Shown here: positions 1 through 23,251 of the stretch, one piece after another
Layout of the letters: the number at the start of each line of letters is the position of its first letter
Position numbering within the stretch: position 1 is the first letter of the stretch
Assembly (NCBI GenBank): GCA_913060565.1
Contig: CAJXRU010000034.1
Location: 1 to 32,949, forward strand
DNA length: 32,949 bases
Direction of reading: 5' to 3'
From: an uncultured Gammaproteobacteria bacterium
GTDB taxonomy: Bacteria > Pseudomonadota > Gammaproteobacteria > Enterobacterales > Psychrobiaceae
Translations under genes and position numbers: made by a program
Notes under the pieces: model-generated
Database searches by the model: none
What the model was told of the DNA's origin: nothing
What the model saw: the letters and a program-made list of their open reading frames with translations, nothing else

Positions 1-51
1 ATACGAGATCATGCCTAGTCTCGTGGGCTCGGAGATGTGTATAAGAGACAG
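1..51. other. Illumina Nextera i7 adapter contamination (not genomic)
   Basis: Bases 1-9 match the end of the P7 oligo, 10-17 (CATGCCTA) match an 8-base Nextera i7 index, 18-32 match the Nextera read-2 primer part, and 33-51 match the 19-base Tn5 mosaic end finishing AGAGACAG. Genome sequence starts at 52. This is library adapter left on a contig end, and it supplies an artificial C-terminus to the adjoining reading frame. Confidence 0.98.
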
Positions 52-1352
52 TGTAGGAAGTGACTTGGACTGATGTTAATGGCTACCTTGAGCTTGTTGT
101 CAGGGTAGAAACTGCTGGCTAAATCATTACATTGCTGACAGGCCATGTGCATGATGTAACGGCCTAGTTTGTCGATGATGCCAATTTCTTCGGCTAACGC
201 GATAAAGTTAGAAGGGTCTACAATGCCATTGATTGGATGGTGCCAACGAAGTAGCGCTTCCATACCAATAAATTTCCCGTCTTTATCAACTTGAGGTTGG
301 TACTGTAAAAATAGTTCTTTGTTAGACAGCGCATCATGGAGTTCTTTAGATTGCTTGAGGCGTGTTTGGGCTTTTTGCTGCATTTCAGGTTGGAAGAATG
401 AGAAAAATCCCTGACCTTTTTCTTTAGCGTTATAGAGTGCAATGTCTGCTTGGCGCAATATGTCTTCTGATGATTGGCTACCGCCGTAGTTAAATACGGT
501 AATGCCGATACAGGCTGACAGGTTGAATTGGTGTTTGTCGACTTTCAGTTGGGCGGCGACTAGTTCGATAAGCGTGGTGGCGTTGTTGTAAGTTTGCAAT
601 GCCGCTGACTGTGGGTCATCGCGATTCATTGACATCACTAGTACGAATTCATCGCCACCTAAACGTCCTAAAAAGTCTTCGCTACGGTGATTAAATGCCA
701 ATCTATTACCAATAGATTTTATTACTTTGTCACCAATGGCGTGCCCTAGCGAATCGTTGACGGCTTTGAATTGATCTAAGTCGATAATGAACATGGCGTA
801 ATGATTTGGGTGTGCGCTGCTTCGCAATCGCTCATGCTCTAAATACTCTAATAATGCATAGCGGTTAGGTAATTCGGTTAGAGGATCGTGAAGCATTTGT
901 TTGTCGAGTTTGTTTTGTGCTTTTTCTCGCTCGGCAATTTCTTGTCGTAGTTGTTGGTTAACTTCGCTTAATTCGCTGGTGCGTTCGTCAACGAGTTTGC
1001 CCAGTTTGCTGTTGAGTTTGTTGATGTTCTTTTTGGCGATGGATAATTCAAATACTGCAGGTAGCCAGCGATGAAAACCAACGGCTAAAAATAATAATCC
1101 AATGAGAGAGCCGAAACCTTTTTCAATGACTGCTTCGGTTGGTGTATCGCCAATAAGTATGTATTGATTTAGTGAGGGGAAGTTATCTGTGATATCAATG
1201 AGAAAGCTAATGAAGAGAAGGATGAAGCCAACAATCAAGAATCGAGAACCAGGCTGTGATTCAACTTTATGCCTCATCATGGAATAATACAGTGTCCATA
1301 ATACGGCGAAAGCCGTTAAGGCGACTAACGATTCTAACAACAGCTCATTCAT
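52..1352 (-). CDS. Membrane-anchored GGDEF-EAL protein, 3' end missing at contig edge
   Basis: Putative c-di-GMP cyclase/phosphodiesterase. Hydrophobic segments lie at about residues 5-25, 38-54 and 79-97, followed by a charged coiled coil at 103-152. The GGDEF domain has an intact active site (G232-F236) and a product-inhibition I-site RxxD (R223-D226) five residues before it. An EAL domain begins near 340 and shows EALLRW (E365) and NISP (N427). The frame then enters adapter: the last 11 residues, CLLYTSPSPRD, and the stop at 15-17 come from Nextera sequence. The real gene therefore continues off the contig, and the rest of EAL (the TE, DDFG, KID and EGVE motifs) is not seen. The ATG at 1350-1352 has an AGGGA ribosome site. 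Synthase activity is likely; phosphodiesterase activity cannot be judged. Confidence 0.93.
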
Positions 1353-2550: not shown

Positions 2551-4026
2551 CTAAACAATTTTCTTCATTGCTGACATATGACCACGTAACGTGTTACCAA
2601 TTTGTTCAACTGGGTGATTACGTAATTCACTGTTGATAGCGATTAATTGCGCGTTGTCTACGCCATTGCTTGTGCTGTCTAAACCACGACCGATAACGTC
2701 GGTGTCGATGCGCGTCATAAAGTCACGTAACATTGGCACACATGCATGGTTGTATAGGTAACAACCGTATTCTGCTGTGTCAGAAATTGTTGCGTTCATT
2801 TCGTAAAGTTTCTTACGCGCAATGGTGTTAGCGATTAACGGCGTTTCATGCAGTGATTCGTAATAAGCTGATTCTTCTTTGATGCCTGCTGCAACCATCG
2901 TTTCGAACGCTAGCTCAACACCGGCGCGAACCATCGCAACCATTAAAATACCGTGGTCAAAGAATTCTTGTTCGCTGATTTCTTGATCGCCTGCAGGCTG
3001 TTTTTCAAAGGCTGTTTCAGCCGTATCTGCACGCCAGCCTAGTAAGTTCTTGTCATCGTTAGCCCAATCTTCCATCATGCCTGATGAGAAAGCACCGCTC
3101 ATAATGTCATCCATGTGCTTGTTGTAAAGCGGACGCATGATTTGCTTAAGTTCTTCTGATAATTCAAACGCTTTTACTTTTGCAGGGTTAGATAGACGAT
3201 CTAACATGTTGGTTACGCCACCGTATTTAAGCGCTTCGGTAACAGTTTCCCAACCGTATTGAAGTAATTTAGAGGCGTAACCTGCGTCGATACCTTTCTC
3301 AACCATCTTTTCAAAACATAAGATTGAACCGGTTTGCAACATGCCACAAAGGATAGTTTGTTCGCCCATTAAGTCTGATTTAACTTCAGCGATAAACGAT
3401 GACATTAGAACACCAGCGCGATGACCACCAGTACCAGCAGCATAGGCTTTAGCGAGTGCCAGACCTTCGCCGCGTGGATCGTTGTCTTCATGAACTGCGA
3501 TAAGTGTTGGTACACCAAAGCCACGTTTGTATTCTTCACGTACTTCAGAGCCAGGACACTTAGGTGCTACCATGATTACAGTTAAATCATCACGAATCTG
3601 CATACCTTCTTCTACCACATTAAAACCGTGTGAGTAGGTTAGACAAGCGCCGTGCTTCATCATTGGCATAACGGCTTCGACAACCGCTGAATGTTGTTTG
3701 TCTGGTGTTAAGTTAAGTACTACGTCTGCATCTGGAATCAGTTCTTCGTAAGTGCCTACGGTAAAGCCGTTTTCAGTGGCGTTTTTCCATGATTGGCGTT
3801 TTTGTTCGATAGCTTCTGCACGTAATGTGTAAGAGATGTCTAAACCACTGTCACGTAGGTTTAAACCTTGGTTAAGACCTTGAGCACCACAACCAATAAT
3901 TACCATCTTTTTACCAACAAGCGCTTGTACGCCGTCGCTAAATTCGCTGATGTCCATAAAGTCACATTTAGCTAGTTGTGCTAACTGATCGCGTAATGAA
4001 AGGGTATTAAAGTAGTTCTGAGCCAT
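2551..4026 (-). CDS. ilvC: Ketol-acid reductoisomerase, class II (long form)
   Basis: Converts acetolactate or acetohydroxybutyrate to dihydroxy acids with NADPH and Mg2+, the second common step of valine and isoleucine synthesis. At 491 aa it is the long E. coli-type class II enzyme with duplicated C-terminal knotted domains. The Rossmann loop GCGAQG is at residues 45-50 in [13 protein letters not shown], and the sequence is collinear with E. coli IlvC throughout. It diverges from ilvY, as in enterics, so induction by IlvY with acetolactate or acetohydroxybutyrate is expected. It ends at the terminator shared with the acyltransferase gene. Confidence 0.98.
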
Positions 4027-4161
4027 GATCGTTCCTGCTATAAATTGTTAGTGGGTCACCAAGTGACGATGGTTCAACATTAGCGCAACTATTCTCTTGC
4101 GTAAAATGATATATACGGGCTACAGTGTTGCAAATAGTGAAACATTACTTGTGGTCATTTG
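4027..4161. promoter_or_regulatory. ilvY-ilvC divergent promoter/operator region
   Basis: The 135-bp gap between divergent ilvC and ilvY. An inverted repeat (GCGCAA at 4083-4088, TTGCGT at 4097-4102) and a TTGCAA palindrome at 4128-4133 are plausible IlvY contacts. Reading leftwards, TTGCAA (4128-4133), a 16-bp spacer and TATCAT (4106-4111) could be the ilvC -35/-10. The regulatory role follows from the conserved ilvYC arrangement; the exact bases are inferred. Confidence 0.6.
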
Positions 4162-5052
4162 ATGGATAATAAACAACTAAAAATGTTCTTAGCACTGGCT
4201 GATAGCTTACACTTTGCTCAAGCGAGTGAGGCGTGTCATGTTAGCCCATCAACGTTAAGTCGTAATATTCAGCAGTTAGAACAACAACTTGGCGTTGTAT
4301 TGTTTGACCGAGACAATAGAACGGTGGCGTTAACGCGAGAGGGAAACCTATTCGTTCAATACGCTAAATCGTCACTGGCACAGTGGGATGTATTTAAACA
4401 ATCACTTGAGGGAGACAGTGAGGAGTTGCTTGGTGAGCTTAGTATTTATTGCTCTGTGACGGCGAGCCATAGTTTTTTGCATCAAATATTAGCCCGTTAT
4501 CGCCAGCAATATCCGAAAGTTGAAATAAAGCTGCGCACCGGTGATGTGGTGCAGTCAATTCCACGGGTGACTAATGAGCAAGAAGACATGGCGATTGCCG
4601 CTAAGCCTGATGTGCTCCCAAGTAATATGGCATTTCAAACCATTGGTGTGTCGCCATTGGTGTTTATTGCACCTGTTGATCGCTGTGAAGTGCAAGCGCA
4701 GGTTGATAGCGGTCAGTTTAAATGGAATAAACTGCCGCTTATTGTTCCTGAGCAGGGCATTGCGAGAAAACGATTAGATAAGTGGTTTAAACGTAAGAAT
4801 ATTAAGCCCAATATTTATTCTGAAGTGGCTGGCAATGAGGCTATTGTGAGCATGGTGAGTTTAGGGTTTGGTGTTGGTTTAGTGCCTAAAATTGTTTTGG
4901 ATAACAGCCCGTTAAAGGATTCAATTCAAATTATGGATGTATCGTCTGCGCTGGAGCCGTTTGAGGTGGTGATTTGTTGTCTTAAGAAACGTTTGAAGCA
5001 GCCATTGAATGAATCATTGTGGAAGTTAGCGAAAGAAGAGATTGAAAAATAA
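4162..5052 (+). CDS. ilvY: LysR-family activator of ilvC
   Basis: HTH-type transcriptional activator of ilvC responding to acetohydroxy acids. The N-terminal winged helix-turn-helix (residues 1-60) contains HVSPSTLSR. The effector domain follows, with family-typical stretches such as SVTASHSFL, EIKLRTGD and VSMVSLGFGVGLVP, clearly related to E. coli IlvY. A TTG at 4159 could add one residue, but ATG 4162 matches the IlvY N-terminus (MDxxxLKxFL). No strong ribosome site is seen. Its divergent position next to ilvC confirms the assignment. Confidence 0.95.
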   Translation: MDNKQLKMFLALADSLHFAQASEACHVSPSTLSRNIQQLEQQLGVVLFDRDNRTVALTREGNLFVQYAKSSLAQWDVFKQSLEGDSEELLGELSIYCSVTASHSFLHQILARYRQQYPKVEIKLRTGDVVQSIPRVTNEQEDMAIAAKPDVLPSNMAFQTIGVSPLVFIAPVDRCEVQAQVDSGQFKWNKLPLIVPEQGIARKRLDKWFKRKNIKPNIYSEVAGNEAIVSMVSLGFGVGLVPKIVLDNSPLKDSIQIMDVSSALEPFEVVICCLKKRLKQPLNESLWKLAKEEIEK

Positions 5053-19216: not shown

Positions 19217-19284
19217 CAATGAATTTTGTTCATTGGATAGTGAAATTAAATCACTATTATTCATTAAACAACTCTCGCTACAAT
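19217..19284 (+). promoter_or_regulatory. Tandem MetR-type boxes and promoter of the TauE/SafE gene
   Basis: The 314-bp gap 19024-19337 is AT-rich and holds this array. A perfect MetR-consensus box TGAA-N5-TTCA lies at 19220-19232, inside the larger palindrome CAATGAA-N5-TTCATTG. A second box, TGAA-N5-ATCA, lies at 19241-19253, ATTCAT at 19259-19264, and a -10-like TACAAT at 19279-19284 with no good -35, as in activator-dependent promoters. The second box overlaps an ATAGTGA/TCACTAT inverted repeat. The same array with the same spacing precedes mesX. Nothing else stands out in the gap. Confidence 0.7.
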
Positions 19285-19337
19285 CTTATGCTTTAATCGC
19301 ATCAATCTTAACTATCAGAAATAGAAGTAATCATTAA

Positions 19338-20168
19338 ATGAATATCATTGAATTTGTATCCAGTAATTTATCGACATTTTTAGCATTAGTTGCAACAGGC
19401 ATCTTCGCTGGCATCCTTGCTGGTTTGTTAGGTGTTGGTGGTGGCATCGTTATTGTTCCGGTGTTGTTTTTCTTGTTTCAAAGTTTTGGGGGGTCACCGG
19501 AGTCAGCCATGTTGGTGGCAACGGCTACATCGTTAGCGACTATAGTGCCGACATCTATTAGTTCGATTCGCTCTCATCATCACAAAGGCAATGTTGATTT
19601 TGAATTATTGAAACGCTGGGCGCTATTTATCTTTATTGGCGTACTGGCGGGGAGTTGGTTAGTTACTCGCGTTGAGGGCACATTACTGACGCTATTATTT
19701 GGCGTTATTGCGACGTTATCGGCATTAAATATGTTGTTAAGAACCAATAAACCTGCTTTATTTCAACAGCTTCCTAATTCAACTGGACAAAGTTTAATGG
19801 CAACGTTAATTGGCTTTTTCAGTGCCATGGTTGGTATTGGTGGTGGTACTATTTCAGTGCCGTTACTGTCGATTTACAATTATCCTACTCACAAAGCGGT
19901 TGGGACGGCAGCGGCGATTGGACTCATTATTTCACTGCCCGGTGCGTTAACAATGTTAGCAATAGGTACAACGCCAGTTGATGCGCCTGTGGGTACATTT
20001 GGCTTGGTTAATGTTATTGCATTTGCGTGCATTGTGCCGTTAACCGTATTGTTTGCACCTGTTGGTGCGACATTAGCCGCTAAGTTAGATGCAGGGAAGT
20101 TAAAGAAGATCTTTGCGGTTGTTTTATTGATAACCGGCGTGCGTATGTTGGGGCAGTTATTCTTATAA
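19338..20168 (+). CDS. TauE/SafE family sulfite/organosulfur permease-like protein
   Basis: A 276-aa membrane protein with about eight hydrophobic segments. The duplicated family motif is seen as GLLGVGGGIVIVP near the N-terminus and AMVGIGGGTISVP in the middle. Family members move sulfite, sulfoacetate, taurine-derived or other small anions. The substrate cannot be read from sequence. It converges on mesD with a strong hairpin between, and its promoter shares MetR-type boxes with mesX, suggesting a sulfur or methionine-related role (inference). Confidence 0.9.
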   Translation: MNIIEFVSSNLSTFLALVATGIFAGILAGLLGVGGGIVIVPVLFFLFQSFGGSPESAMLVATATSLATIVPTSISSIRSHHHKGNVDFELLKRWALFIFIGVLAGSWLVTRVEGTLLTLLFGVIATLSALNMLLRTNKPALFQQLPNSTGQSLMATLIGFFSAMVGIGGGTISVPLLSIYNYPTHKAVGTAAAIGLIISLPGALTMLAIGTTPVDAPVGTFGLVNVIAFACIVPLTVLFAPVGATLAAKLDAGKLKKIFAVVLLITGVRMLGQLFL

Positions 20169-20179
20169 TCGATATATCG

Positions 20180-20209
20180 TGTATGGGTTGTTGCAGTACA
20201 ACCCATACA
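20180..20209. terminator. Hairpin between convergent TauE/SafE and mesD genes
   Basis: A perfect 12-bp inverted repeat (20180-20191 with 20198-20209, core GTATGGGTTGT) with a 6-base loop sits in the 54-bp convergent gap. No T-run follows on either side, so intrinsic termination is likely but not certain. Confidence 0.55.
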
Positions 20210-20222
20210 AATCATTGTCATG

Positions 20223-21251
20223 CTAGTTCGACAGCTCTTGGCGGATGATTTCAGCACCTGCACTTAACGCATTGAGTTTAGCGGTGGCTACTTCTCGTGG
20301 AAGCGGCGCCATACCACAATTGGTACAAGGATAGAGTTTGTCGGCATCAACAAATTCCAGCGCTTTTCTTAACGTGTCAGCAACTTCCTCTGGCGTCTCT
20401 ATAGTATTTGTAGCGACATCAATTGCACCAACCATGACTTTCTTACCACGAATTAACTCAAGTAAATCAATAGGCACATGAGAGTTGTGACACTCTAGTG
20501 AAATAATATCGATACTCGATTGTTGGAGTTTAGGGAAGGCTTCTTCATATTGTCGCCATTCGGTACCTAGCGTTTTCTTCCAATCAGTGTTGGCTTTGAT
20601 GCCGTAGCCATAGCAAATATGAACGGCCGTTTCGCACTTTAGTCCTTCAATGGCTCGTTCGAGTGTTGCTATGCCCCAGTCATTGACCTCATCAAAGAAG
20701 ACGTTAAACGCAGGTTCGTCAAATTGAATAATATCAACACCTGCCGCTTCGAGTTCTTTCGCTTCTTGGTTAAGAATAATCGCGAATTCCCAGGCCAGTT
20801 TTTCACGACTCTTGTAATGGTCATCATACAAGGTATCTATCATGGTCATCGGACCCGGAAGTGCCCATTTAATTGGTTTATCAGTTTGTTGGCGTAAGAA
20901 CTTTGCATCTTCGACAAATACTGACTTTTGGCGGCTAACCGCACCGACAACTGTTGGCACGCTAGCATCGTAGCGATCTCTAATCTTAACTGTTTTTCGT
21001 TGTTCAAAGTCAACACCATTGAGGTGTTCAATAAAAGTCGTCACAAAGTGTTGGCGTGTTTGTTCCCCATCACTGACAATATCAGTGCCGGCTTGTTGTT
21101 GGTCATGTAAAGACAAACGTAATGCGTCTTTTTTGCCATCGATGAGTTCATCGCCTGCTAATTTCCATGGTGACCATAGTGTTTCTGGCTCAGCCAACCA
21201 AGAAGGTTTTGGCAAACTACCTGCTGTTGAGGTCGGTAATAATTTTTTCAT
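20223..21251 (-). CDS. mesD: Core methionine synthase MesD (MetE catalytic-domain homologue)
   Basis: A 342-aa homologue of the C-terminal catalytic domain of MetE without the folate-binding N-terminal half. Zinc ligands expected for the family are present: H211 and C213 (HIC), E253 (SLECHN) and C312 (TNCGM). QFDEP at 176-180 is the usual homocysteine-side acidic motif. It lies 26 bases after a DUF1852 gene. This pairing defines the MesD family, shown in published genetic work to make methionine without 5-methyltetrahydrofolate or cobalamin but requiring DUF1852 (MesX) and oxygen. The methyl donor is unknown. It is transcribed with mesX and probably MetR-controlled. Confidence 0.9.
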   Translation of the reverse strand: MKKLLPTSTAGSLPKPSWLAEPETLWSPWKLAGDELIDGKKDALRLSLHDQQQAGTDIVSDGEQTRQHFVTTFIEHLNGVDFEQRKTVKIRDRYDASVPTVVGAVSRQKSVFVEDAKFLRQQTDKPIKWALPGPMTMIDTLYDDHYKSREKLAWEFAIILNQEAKELEAAGVDIIQFDEPAFNVFFDEVNDWGIATLERAIEGLKCETAVHICYGYGIKANTDWKKTLGTEWRQYEEAFPKLQQSSIDIISLECHNSHVPIDLLELIRGKKVMVGAIDVATNTIETPEEVADTLRKALEFVDADKLYPCTNCGMAPLPREVATAKLNALSAGAEIIRQELSN

Positions 21252-21277
21252 AGTGAATAGTGTCTTATCTTTTAATG

Positions 21278-22252
21278 TTAGGCGAAATTAGCTGACCACT
21301 GTTCCAGCACAGTTTGGTATGGCTTAATAAATTGTTCTTCGGCACGTTTACCTTGTTCAATGGCTAATTGGCTACGTTCTTCTCGGTCATAAACGATTTG
21401 TGTTAATGAATGATCCAAGTTCTTTAAATTGGGCTGATAGCACTTTCCAGCGGTTGCATTGGCGTTATAAATTTCAGGACGATAAATTTTTTGAAAAGTG
21501 CCCATGGTGCTAATAGTGCTGATGAGTTCAAGGTTTGTGTAGTCAGCTAACAGGTCGCCAAAGAAATAGAAAGCAAATGGGGCAACACTATTTGGCGGCA
21601 TGAAATAGCGCACCTGTAATCCCATTTTTTTGAAATACTGTTCAGTTAGTGATGACTCGTTTGGTGAGTATTCCACACCCAATACCGGGTGCTCGTTCTC
21701 TGTGCGGCGATAGATTTTATTGTCGGATACGCTGAGGCATATTACTGGAGGCTTATTGAAATTCTCTTTATAAGTCGAAGAGTTAACAAAATTCTGAAAA
21801 AGCTTTCCATGGAGATCACCAAAATTATTTGGAATGCTAAACGTCGCCTGATCTTTATTGTGATCTAATAGTAAAACACTGAAATCATAATCTCTCACAT
21901 AAGAAGAAAAGTTATTACCAACAATGCCTTCAATATGCTTGTTTGTTTTGTGATCGATGATGTTGGTTTTTAATATTTCAATGGATGGAAACGCTTTGTC
22001 GCCACCCTCAATATCCATTTCAACAGAAATGATATCAAGTTCTACGCAATAGCGATCGCCATTAGGATTATCCCAATGAGCCATTGCATTAAAACTATTG
22101 TTAATCATCTTTAAGGTTTTACGCAGGTTTGCTTGGCGGCTAGTACCACGAGCCAAGTTGGCAAAGTTAGTGGTTATGCGCGTGCTGTCTGATGGTTGAT
22201 AGTTTTCATCGAAACAAATGTTTTTGATGTTAAATGTAAAGTCTTTATTCAT
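21278..22252 (-). CDS. mesX: DUF1852 protein MesX, partner of MesD
   Basis: A 324-aa soluble protein of the DUF1852 family, with no signal peptide or membrane helix. DUF1852 is required with oxygen for MesD-dependent methionine synthesis and has been suggested to generate or transfer the methyl group oxidatively; its chemistry is unproven. Visible features are the RGTSRQANLRKTL segment near the N-terminus, many aromatic residues and a C-terminal EEQFIKPYQTVLEQWSANF tail. The ATG follows AGGA by about 11 bases. It is the first gene of the mesX-mesD transcript, with an upstream leader of about 100 bases from the predicted promoter. Confidence 0.9.
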   Translation of the reverse strand: MNKDFTFNIKNICFDENYQPSDSTRITTNFANLARGTSRQANLRKTLKMINNSFNAMAHWDNPNGDRYCVELDIISVEMDIEGGDKAFPSIEILKTNIIDHKTNKHIEGIVGNNFSSYVRDYDFSVLLLDHNKDQATFSIPNNFGDLHGKLFQNFVNSSTYKENFNKPPVICLSVSDNKIYRRTENEHPVLGVEYSPNESSLTEQYFKKMGLQVRYFMPPNSVAPFAFYFFGDLLADYTNLELISTISTMGTFQKIYRPEIYNANATAGKCYQPNLKNLDHSLTQIVYDREERSQLAIEQGKRAEEQFIKPYQTVLEQWSANFA

Positions 22253-22356
22253 GGTGATCTGATTTCCTGTTTCCGGCGTTATTTGCTGACTTATTCAGTA
22301 AATAACGAGTGCAGCTAGTGGCGGTTAACTGCTGTATTGTTTAGCGTTAATGGTGA

Positions 22357-22422
22357 TTTATACGTGGTTCATTACATGAATAAAATTGATTTTACTTCAT
22401 CGAATCATGAACTTTGTTCATG
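22357..22422 (-). promoter_or_regulatory. MetR-type boxes and promoter of mesX-mesD
   Basis: Reading leftwards: a perfect TGAA-N5-TTCA box at 22408-22420 within CATGAAC-N3-GTTCATG (22406-22422), a second TGAA-N5-ATCA at 22387-22399, ATTCAT at 22376-22381, and TATAAA at 22357-22362 as -10. Box centres are 21 bp apart. TGAA-N5-TTCA is the published E. coli MetR consensus, and MetR activates metE, of which mesD is a functional analogue. The rest of the 22253-22521 gap holds the mesX leader and the start region of the broken GNAT gene. Confidence 0.75.
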
Positions 22423-22566
22423 TAACGGTTGCTGATTACTTTATTTGATTGATTTTGTTTTTTTTAGGCCGTTATACTGCACAGCAATCACCCTGATATA
22501 ACAGAAATGAAAGGAAGCAAGATGATTACAATTCGCGAAACCACAATAGAAGCATTCAGATGCTAT

Positions 22567-22829
22567 ACCCAAGTTACATGAAGATGCTCGATTTCAGCAA
22601 GTCGAGAAGCGCGCCAAATACTAGGCATAAGATGTGTCGTTAAGTCATTCTTAATAAATATCTTATAACGACGTAGTTGGTCGCTTATCGCCTTGCCCGA
22701 AGGGAGTTCGGGTAGAAAACGACTACCGCGTTATGATTCATAATCAGGGAATAACCATTAATTACAAATCATGCCTTGTATTCGATTCCTACCCGAACTC
22801 TGAAACATGCATCTTCAAGTGACTTGGGT
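22567..22829 (+). mobile_element. MITE/structured repeat, family copy 1
   Basis: A 263-bp element with about 21-bp imperfect terminal inverted repeats starting ACCCAAGT (left 22567, right end 22829), flanked by AT on both sides. Inside are a CTCGA/TCGAG hairpin, GTCGTTAAG with CTTATAACGAC, and an exact 12-bp inverted repeat GAGTTCGGGTAG (22704-22715) with CTACCCGAACTC (22789-22800). No coding capacity. It interrupts the GNAT gene. Confidence 0.88.
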
Positions 22830-22990
22830 ATCTTTATAATTTTATTATCGCCATTAGCGAATTTCATAACCAACGTCATCTTGTTGAAACAACACGAGAT
22901 GAAGTGAAGCAGTCAGGTTTTGAAGGTAATTCTAAATTTGGTGTTTTGTTAGCCGAAGTAGATGGTGATATTGCTGGATACTGTACTCAT

Positions 22991-23251
22991 ACCCGTTGCC
23001 AATGAAAGCGCTCGGTTTCAGCAAGACGAGAAGCGCGCCAAATACAAGGCATAGGATATGTTGTTAAGTCATTCTTAACCAAGATCTTATAACGACGTAG
23101 TTGGTCGCTTATCGCCTTGCCCAAAGGGAGCTCGGGTAGAAAACGACTACTGCGTTATGATTATAATCAGGAATAACCATTAATTAGAAATCATGCCTTG
23201 TATTCGATTCCTACCCGAGCTCTGAAACAAGCGTCTTCACTGGTAACGGGT
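22991..23251 (+). mobile_element. MITE/structured repeat, family copy 2
   Basis: A 261-bp element in the same orientation as copy 1 and clearly similar throughout the interior, but its terminal repeats begin ACCCGTT instead of ACCCAAG, changed at both ends together. The inner stem is GAGCTCGGGTAG (23128-23139) with CTACCCGAGCTC (23211-23222), carrying a matched C-G pair in place of the T-A pair of copy 1. It is flanked by AT on both sides. Second insertion in the same GNAT gene. Confidence 0.88.

Follow-up and report, generated by a model that had tools for sequence, protein, structure and literature searches.

Genes and promoters of the locus

We analyzed a 32,949-nucleotide stretch of DNA (here called the window; contig CAJXRU010000034.1, positions 1 to 32,949, assembly GCA_913060565.1) from an uncultured gammaproteobacterium of the Psychrobiaceae. 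The interval 19217-22422 spans genes for a TauE/SafE-family permease, the core methionine synthase MesD, and the putative oxygenase MesX, and carries near either end one copy of a composite promoter element, here called the array, of just 45 bp (Table 1). The PF08908 gene adjoins a gene for a short MetE-like catalytic protein, the arrangement that defines the MesD/MesX (MesXD) system. According to the main text of Price et al. 2021 (PMC7857596), MesD and MesX make methionine without methyl-folate or B12 from an unknown methyl donor, and MesX is predicted to be an oxygen-dependent, flavin-using enzyme with an unknown substrate. Since the genome contains a MetH domain match but none to the N-terminal domain of MetE, its B12-free methionine synthase should be MesXD.

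Table 1. Coordinates of the features discussed (positions in the window unless a contig or locus is named)
Feature	Coordinates	Strand	Details
TauE/SafE-family permease, 276 aa	19338..20168	+	PF01925, 177.8 bits (cut-off, 32.6)
mesD, core methionine synthase, 342 aa	20223..21251	-	NF006589, 708.9 bits (cut-off, 392); PF01717
mesX, putative oxygenase, 324 aa	21278..22252	-	PF08908, 608.6 bits (cut-off, 25)
Array before permease	19220..19264	+	Site 1 TGAATTTTGTTCA 19220-19232; site 2 TGAAATTAAATCA 19241-19253; ATTCAT 19259-19264
-10-like TACAAT (permease)	19279..19284	+	Candidate; start site assumed
Array before mesX	22376..22420	-	Site 1 TGAACAAAGTTCA 22408-22420; site 2 TGAAGTAAAATCA 22387-22399; ATTCAT 22376-22381
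-10-like TATAAA (mesX)	22357..22362	-	Candidate; start site assumed
MetR-type regulator gene	C18:11674-12564 (E. coli MetR match, C18:11674-12552)		
Flavin-reductase-like genes	L189:4291-5088, L271:2781-3566, L276:153-935, L279:2714-3487, L281:2852-3643, L304:2670-3458		
Loci of second TauE-type permease	L034, L038, L181, L182, L187, L191		
Purine-degradation permease loci	L213-L220, L240, plus 42 of 80 among L269-L348		Best 80 of 481

An earlier note on this DNA, made from its letters alone, had described one composite (TGAA-N5-TTCA, 8 bp, TGAA-N5-ATCA, 5 bp, ATTCAT) in the same order and gene-relative orientation at both promoters, followed by a -10-like hexamer 19 or 20 bp after the start of ATTCAT. 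Both copies are exact, and the hexamers begin at 20 bp before the permease and at 19 bp before mesX. No further copy was found in the window, even when 3 mismatches were allowed, and 100 dinucleotide shuffles of the window yielded no match. The first 34 bp of the composite occurred exactly twice in the whole 4.35-Mb genome, both times at this locus, and the same 34-bp pattern read backwards did not occur in the genome; from the base composition of the window, about 3e-6 exact full composites are expected per genome. The single palindrome TGAAN5TTCA, present at 176 places in the genome versus 116 for the backward pattern, is too common to be used alone.

The two copies are identical at all 22 specified bases and agree at just 8 of 23 spacer bases and 13 of 60 flanking bases (either side). 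Since spacers and flanks have diverged, the pair is not a recent duplication, as the earlier note had argued from the intervening bases; the likeness is maintained by constraint, not by recent copying. The alternative that the similarity arose by chance, or by recent copying of one promoter, was rejected and has next to no probability, given the empty shuffles, the unlike spacers and flanks, and the conservation of the array across genomes.

Just upstream of mesX, an acetyltransferase-like open reading frame (ORF) is interrupted by an insert of about 270 bp (22561-22835) that resembles a miniature inverted-repeat transposable element, with 23-nt inverted repeats at 22565-22587 and 22809-22831. 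By eye, a second, similar insert seems to follow at about 23006-23246.

Conservation of the array and the genes that travel with it

A scan of 197 genomes of the order with a relaxed composite (up to 1 mismatch) found 26 places in 23 genomes, and the backward control was positive in 1 genome (genomes and loci are cited below by G and L numbers, respectively). Downstream of these places lay mesX (16 places), this permease (5), metE (3, all confirmed against E. coli MetE), and something else in 2 cases, one before an ORF that by eye looks like an M24 peptidase and one without an ORF of 60 aa. A class-wide draw of 369 genomes gave 10 places, including 5 outside the order; by eye, 4 of these 5 stand before MetE-looking ORFs, 3 of which have a divergent LysR-type ORF, and 1 lies inside an ORF.

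Promoters were also scored over 350 bp upstream, on a scale up to 22 and with 7, 8, or 9 bp allowed for the central gap. The 565 control ORFs, each 150 aa or longer, came from the same loci and had their 5' ends set at the first start codon. Scores of at least 18 were reached by 30 of the 45 mesX promoters found in the order set and by 4 of the 565 controls; at a threshold of 17, the counts were 40 of 45 and 11 of 565. Of the four control ORFs at 18 or more, one (L183) is unexplained; the others are a flavin-reductase-like gene (L189) and two ORFs that stand divergent from the regulator gene (L223) or from mesX (L212). The central gap is 9 or 7 rather than 8 bp in some families. From sequence comparison, then, the array is a mark of mesX, this permease, metE, and a flavin-reductase-like gene, and with the composite this regulon can be searched for specifically, much more sharply than with the single palindrome.

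The earlier note had proposed that such a scan of relatives would show whether metE, metH, metF, metR, mesX, and this permease are marked. The part concerning mesX, the permease, and metE held; metH of this genome was not marked. Upstream of that gene (L122), no MetR-like site was found within one mismatch, and tandem MetJ-like boxes, by what we take to be the MetJ pattern, were found instead. Thus, metH was rejected as a co-target here, and this genome appears to place its two methionine synthases under different regulators.

Permeases at least 76% identical to that of the window were found in 12 genomes of the order set, all adjoining mesD (cut by the contig end in 2). Eight have their own array (20 to 22 of 22). 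In two genomes (G030 and G112), the permease gene follows mesX-mesD on the same strand, and the mesX-mesD promoters there score 17 and 20. mesX was detectable in 11 of the 12 genomes (Fisher's exact test for the link, 3e-7, with kinship ignored).

We also scanned one genome per species by permease alignment and examined the best 80 of 481 confirmed relatives. mesX and mesD lay alongside in 16 of these 80 loci, with a MetR-type gene as well in 11 of the 16. Titles among the 16 include Colwellia, Pseudoalteromonas, Psychromonas, Thalassotalea, Methylophaga, Balneatrix, and Rheinheimera; contigs of metagenome-assembled genomes labeled Akkermansiaceae, Opitutales, and Micavibrio also occur among them, and the cassette was seen on contigs labeled Verrucomicrobiota, all of which may be misbinned. 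The mesX promoters reach 18 of 22 in 13 of the 16 loci; the other three score 16 (L283) and 14 (L304) or have too short an upstream region (L282). A traveling cassette of regulator, sometimes a flavin-reductase-like gene, mesX, mesD, and permease is suggested by these loci and appears to be new.

These data also bear on whether the permease array is a relic or bystander that once served a divergent regulator gene, the permease itself having no role in methionine metabolism. A regulator gene does stand divergent from the permease in G014, G001, L269, and L277, as that explanation would have it. However, the array points at the permease and persists in genomes whose regulator gene lies elsewhere (G000, G002, G008, G193, G020, and G044), and the permease lies on the same strand behind mesX-mesD not only in G030 and G112 but in 12 of the 16 loci just described. 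We consider a relic highly improbable.

Clustering of ORFs from 63 mesXD or permease loci recovered mesX, mesD, TauE-type permeases, the MetR-type gene, and the flavin-reductase-like gene. The last was present in 6 of the 63 loci, always divergent from the MetR-type gene. One of the six proteins was profiled, and its best model was NAD(P)H-flavin reductase (149 bits, under the cut-off of 230). All six genes have an array-like stretch upstream (16 to 19 of 22) with TTAA for TTCA in site 1, and their product is a candidate partner of MesX. Additionally, a second TauE-type permease (34 to 36% identical) is encoded divergently from mesX in G051, G028, G116, G070, G082, and G142; its own upstream region scores just 14 to 16. 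This distant permease is a second link between mesX and the transporter family, though one that lacks a good array. With the MesXD type of promoter before them in several lineages, a transporter gene and a flavin-reductase-like gene are concrete candidates for partners.

A MetR-type regulator and the proposed shared control

Both arrays match the ATGAA-N5-TTCAT-like palindrome given as a consensus in the main text of Leyn et al. 2014 (PMC4239095), in each case upstream of the gene; according to the same text, MetR senses homocysteine. Queried with E. coli MetR, the genome of the window yielded 32 places, of which 31 were weak and one was clear (38% identity; E value, 1e-60); the next LysR match had 29% identity and an E value of 2e-13. 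The best model for the clear match is the NCBIfam MetR equivalog NF011950. Matches were found in 114 genomes; 48 of the genes were fetched, and a tree of these with E. coli MetR (49 rows) placed the regulator in a clade of 28, split with 100/100 support from the 21 rows holding E. coli MetR. By this tree, the regulator's clade and the one holding E. coli MetR are sisters. Both clades are represented in six genomes and, as identities suggest, in a seventh (G196). Of the 28 rows in the regulator's clade, 9 have mesX or the permease as a neighbor and 11 have metE, from which they are divergent; the other 8, including that of the window's genome, are near no searched gene. Since G020, G044, G081, G140, and G152 have arrays and only a regulator of the E. 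coli clade, both clades probably read the array. A MetR-type match at an E value of 1e-55 was found in 21 of the 23 array-bearing genomes; the two without one (G058 and G132) are those in which the array precedes no expected gene.

Because the composite is conserved and specific, a MetR-type gene is present, and its orthologs in relatives lie beside mesX, the permease, or metE, the shared MetR-like control suggested by the earlier note is well supported as a prediction. Very probably, one MetR-type LysR regulator controls both arrays as promoters, and in this genome it would be the single MetR-type protein encoded on C18. Its tetramer would hold site 1 as the recognition site, centered near -65, and its second pair of DNA-binding domains would hold site 2 and the ATTCAT end as activation subsites that extend to the -35 region. 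On the model of MetR, we assume activation by homocysteine; the active regulator would then switch on mesXD and, from the second promoter copy, the permease, and enzyme and transporter would rise together upon homocysteine accumulation. Regulator binding, inducer, tetramer geometry, and activation are the parts of this scheme that we infer.

The spacing would be consistent with such a tetramer. With a transcription start assumed 7 bp past the -10-like box, the center of site 1 falls at -65 before the permease and at -64 before mesX, that of site 2 at -44 and -43, respectively, and ATTCAT near -29. A weak third 13-mer, made up of the end of site 2 and ATTCAT (TCAATTTTATTCA at mesX), follows 10 bp further on and could be the second activation subsite. 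LysR-type tetramers are described in PMC4730206 as binding one high-affinity site, near -65, as well as two activation subsites that are weaker; on activation, they are thought to shift between these subsites. On the assumed starts, the two sites and ATTCAT would fit the recognition and activation sites of one such tetramer, with site 1 near -65 and the subsites downstream; in contrast to the promoters described there, the presumed activation site here is a clear, conserved palindrome.

Several observations weigh against control by a single MetR-type protein. The regulator scores 213.6 bits with NF011950, under the cut-off of 382, and is therefore called MetR-type rather than MetR; its gene is unlinked in the genome of the window, lying on another contig. 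The lowest mesX promoters score 15 (G187 and G087) and 14 (G058). The upstream regions of E. coli metE, metR, metH, glyA, hmp, and metF reach at best 11 to 13 of 22, and these genes were rejected as carriers of the strict composite; those of glyA and metF contain imperfect site pairs 20 to 22 bp apart. Lastly, the permeases of G006 (13) and G108 (15) have no clear array and do not lie behind mesXD. The earlier note had named loss of the array from orthologous promoters of close relatives as refuting; of the 12 permeases, 8 keep an array of their own and 2 lie in one operon behind mesX-mesD, which leaves these 2.

Another LysR-type regulator of the genome might instead read both arrays, since LysR sites look alike and the E. 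coli MetR query had 31 weak matches. Against this, the half-sites are those of MetR in the main text of PMC4239095, and it is the orthologs of the MetR-type gene that are linked to mesX, the permease, and metE. A different LysR-type reader is very unlikely, and we retain the MetR-type regulator as the preferred explanation.

Cargo of the permease and relation to known systems

No solved structural relative of the permease was found at E values up to 1, and clues to its cargo came from the operons of its relatives. Its nearest relatives outside the mesXD set lie in purine-degradation operons. Among the same best 80 of 481 relatives, a class V aminotransferase gene (at least 65% identical) stands beside the permease in 42 loci, nearly all of which add a GGT-like Ntn hydrolase and an allantoate-amidohydrolase-like gene; of the remaining loci, 8 show the GGT-like gene alone, and 14 lack it as well as the aminotransferase gene, bar one 25% match. 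The aminotransferase tested (L213) matched the solved ureidoglycine-glyoxylate aminotransferase 3nnk (5.6e-181), and the hydrolase that follows it scored over an allantoate amidohydrolase cut-off. The best solved match of the GGT-like protein was 5hft, which we take to be Klebsiella HpxW. HpxW frees oxalate and ammonium from oxamate, according to a review (PMC5270733).

Unlike the mesXD permeases, those of the purine operons have no array. The order set holds 10 more distant permeases (56 to 73% identical); the 9 fetched ones, left after one with an internal stop was set aside (G113), lie in operons of this other kind, and all score 14 or less. The same limit holds for the amidase, GGT-like, and permease upstream regions at 12 named loci. 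In a quick permease tree (midpoint root, with support only from the Shimodaira-Hasegawa-like approximate likelihood ratio test, SH-aLRT), 27 of 28 mesXD-linked rows form one group with an SH-aLRT of 92 (the program's mark is 95). By the midpoint root, this group sits within the purine-linked rows; L304 falls outside it on a long branch. The plain reading of this tree would be that the permease was recruited from a purine operon.

Relatives beside a ureidoglycine-glyoxylate aminotransferase and an HpxW-like enzyme suggest a C2 acid as cargo, which would be the most economical substrate common to the mesXD and purine permeases, and such an acid may perhaps be a by-product of MesX. The main text of PMC7857596 gives pyruvate to glyoxylate as a purely illustrative MesX reaction. 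Put together, the purine-operon permease would have been recruited for a C2 acid (oxalate, glyoxylate, or oxamate) that MesX, as a reduced-flavin oxygenase fed by the coregulated reductase, makes as a by-product when it passes on to MesD a methyl group drawn from a C3 metabolite (for instance, pyruvate); oxalate or glyoxylate would then be exported. In this complete form the proposal is unlikely. If it is true, a MetR-type regulon would disclose the methyl source of folate-independent methionine synthesis; should a C2 acid prove to be the cargo, the product side of the MesX reaction could be measured.

Alternatively, the regulation may be as proposed and the permease may export homocysteine, another thiol, sulfite, or a sulfonate, relieving sulfur-metabolite stress in a way unrelated to MesX chemistry. 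The family name (TauE/SafE; PF01925) agrees with this, as does the view, in the main text of PMC4239095, that MetR regulons clear excess homocysteine. Yet no sulfur gene was seen in the purine-degradation operons that hold the nearest permease relatives, and the metE targets of the order set have no such permease alongside, among the genes searched for. A role as a thiol or sulfite exporter is possible, and we give this alternative appreciable weight, short of even chances.

The control of mesXD by MetR is already predicted: the main text of Leyn et al. 2014 lists "PF08908-metE2" (mesXD), like metE, among MetR targets of Proteobacteria, with the same palindrome as here. What differs is the fixed two-site composite and a regulator outside the E. 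coli MetR clade. The terms "TauE" and "COG0730" are absent from that main text (Table S2 was not covered). Price et al. 2021 described the same two genes as here, with a putative flavin reductase near mesXD, and their main text contains "permease" and "transporter" zero times. Judged by title and start of abstract, nothing relevant was among the papers listed by literature searches on MetR/TauE/methionine and on TauE/oxalate/permease/allantoin; among the papers listed for MesX/DUF1852, only Price 2021 treats the chemistry of the system, and PMC13059711 has passages on MesD and N2O. Because these searches and the main text of PMC4239095 were negative, we describe the permease link as not reported. 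Four additions appear to be new relative to the papers searched: the permease, the composite of two sites at a fixed spacing, a regulator clade apart from that of E. coli MetR, and the traveling cassette.

Elsewhere in the window, positions 1-51, at the contig start, look like what is presumably a leftover Illumina Nextera adapter with index, and the ORF at 15-1352 (minus strand) terminates in adapter-derived residues. At 2551-5052, an IlvC-looking ORF is divergent from an IlvY regulator gene (NF008722, over its cut-off), an ordinary arrangement.

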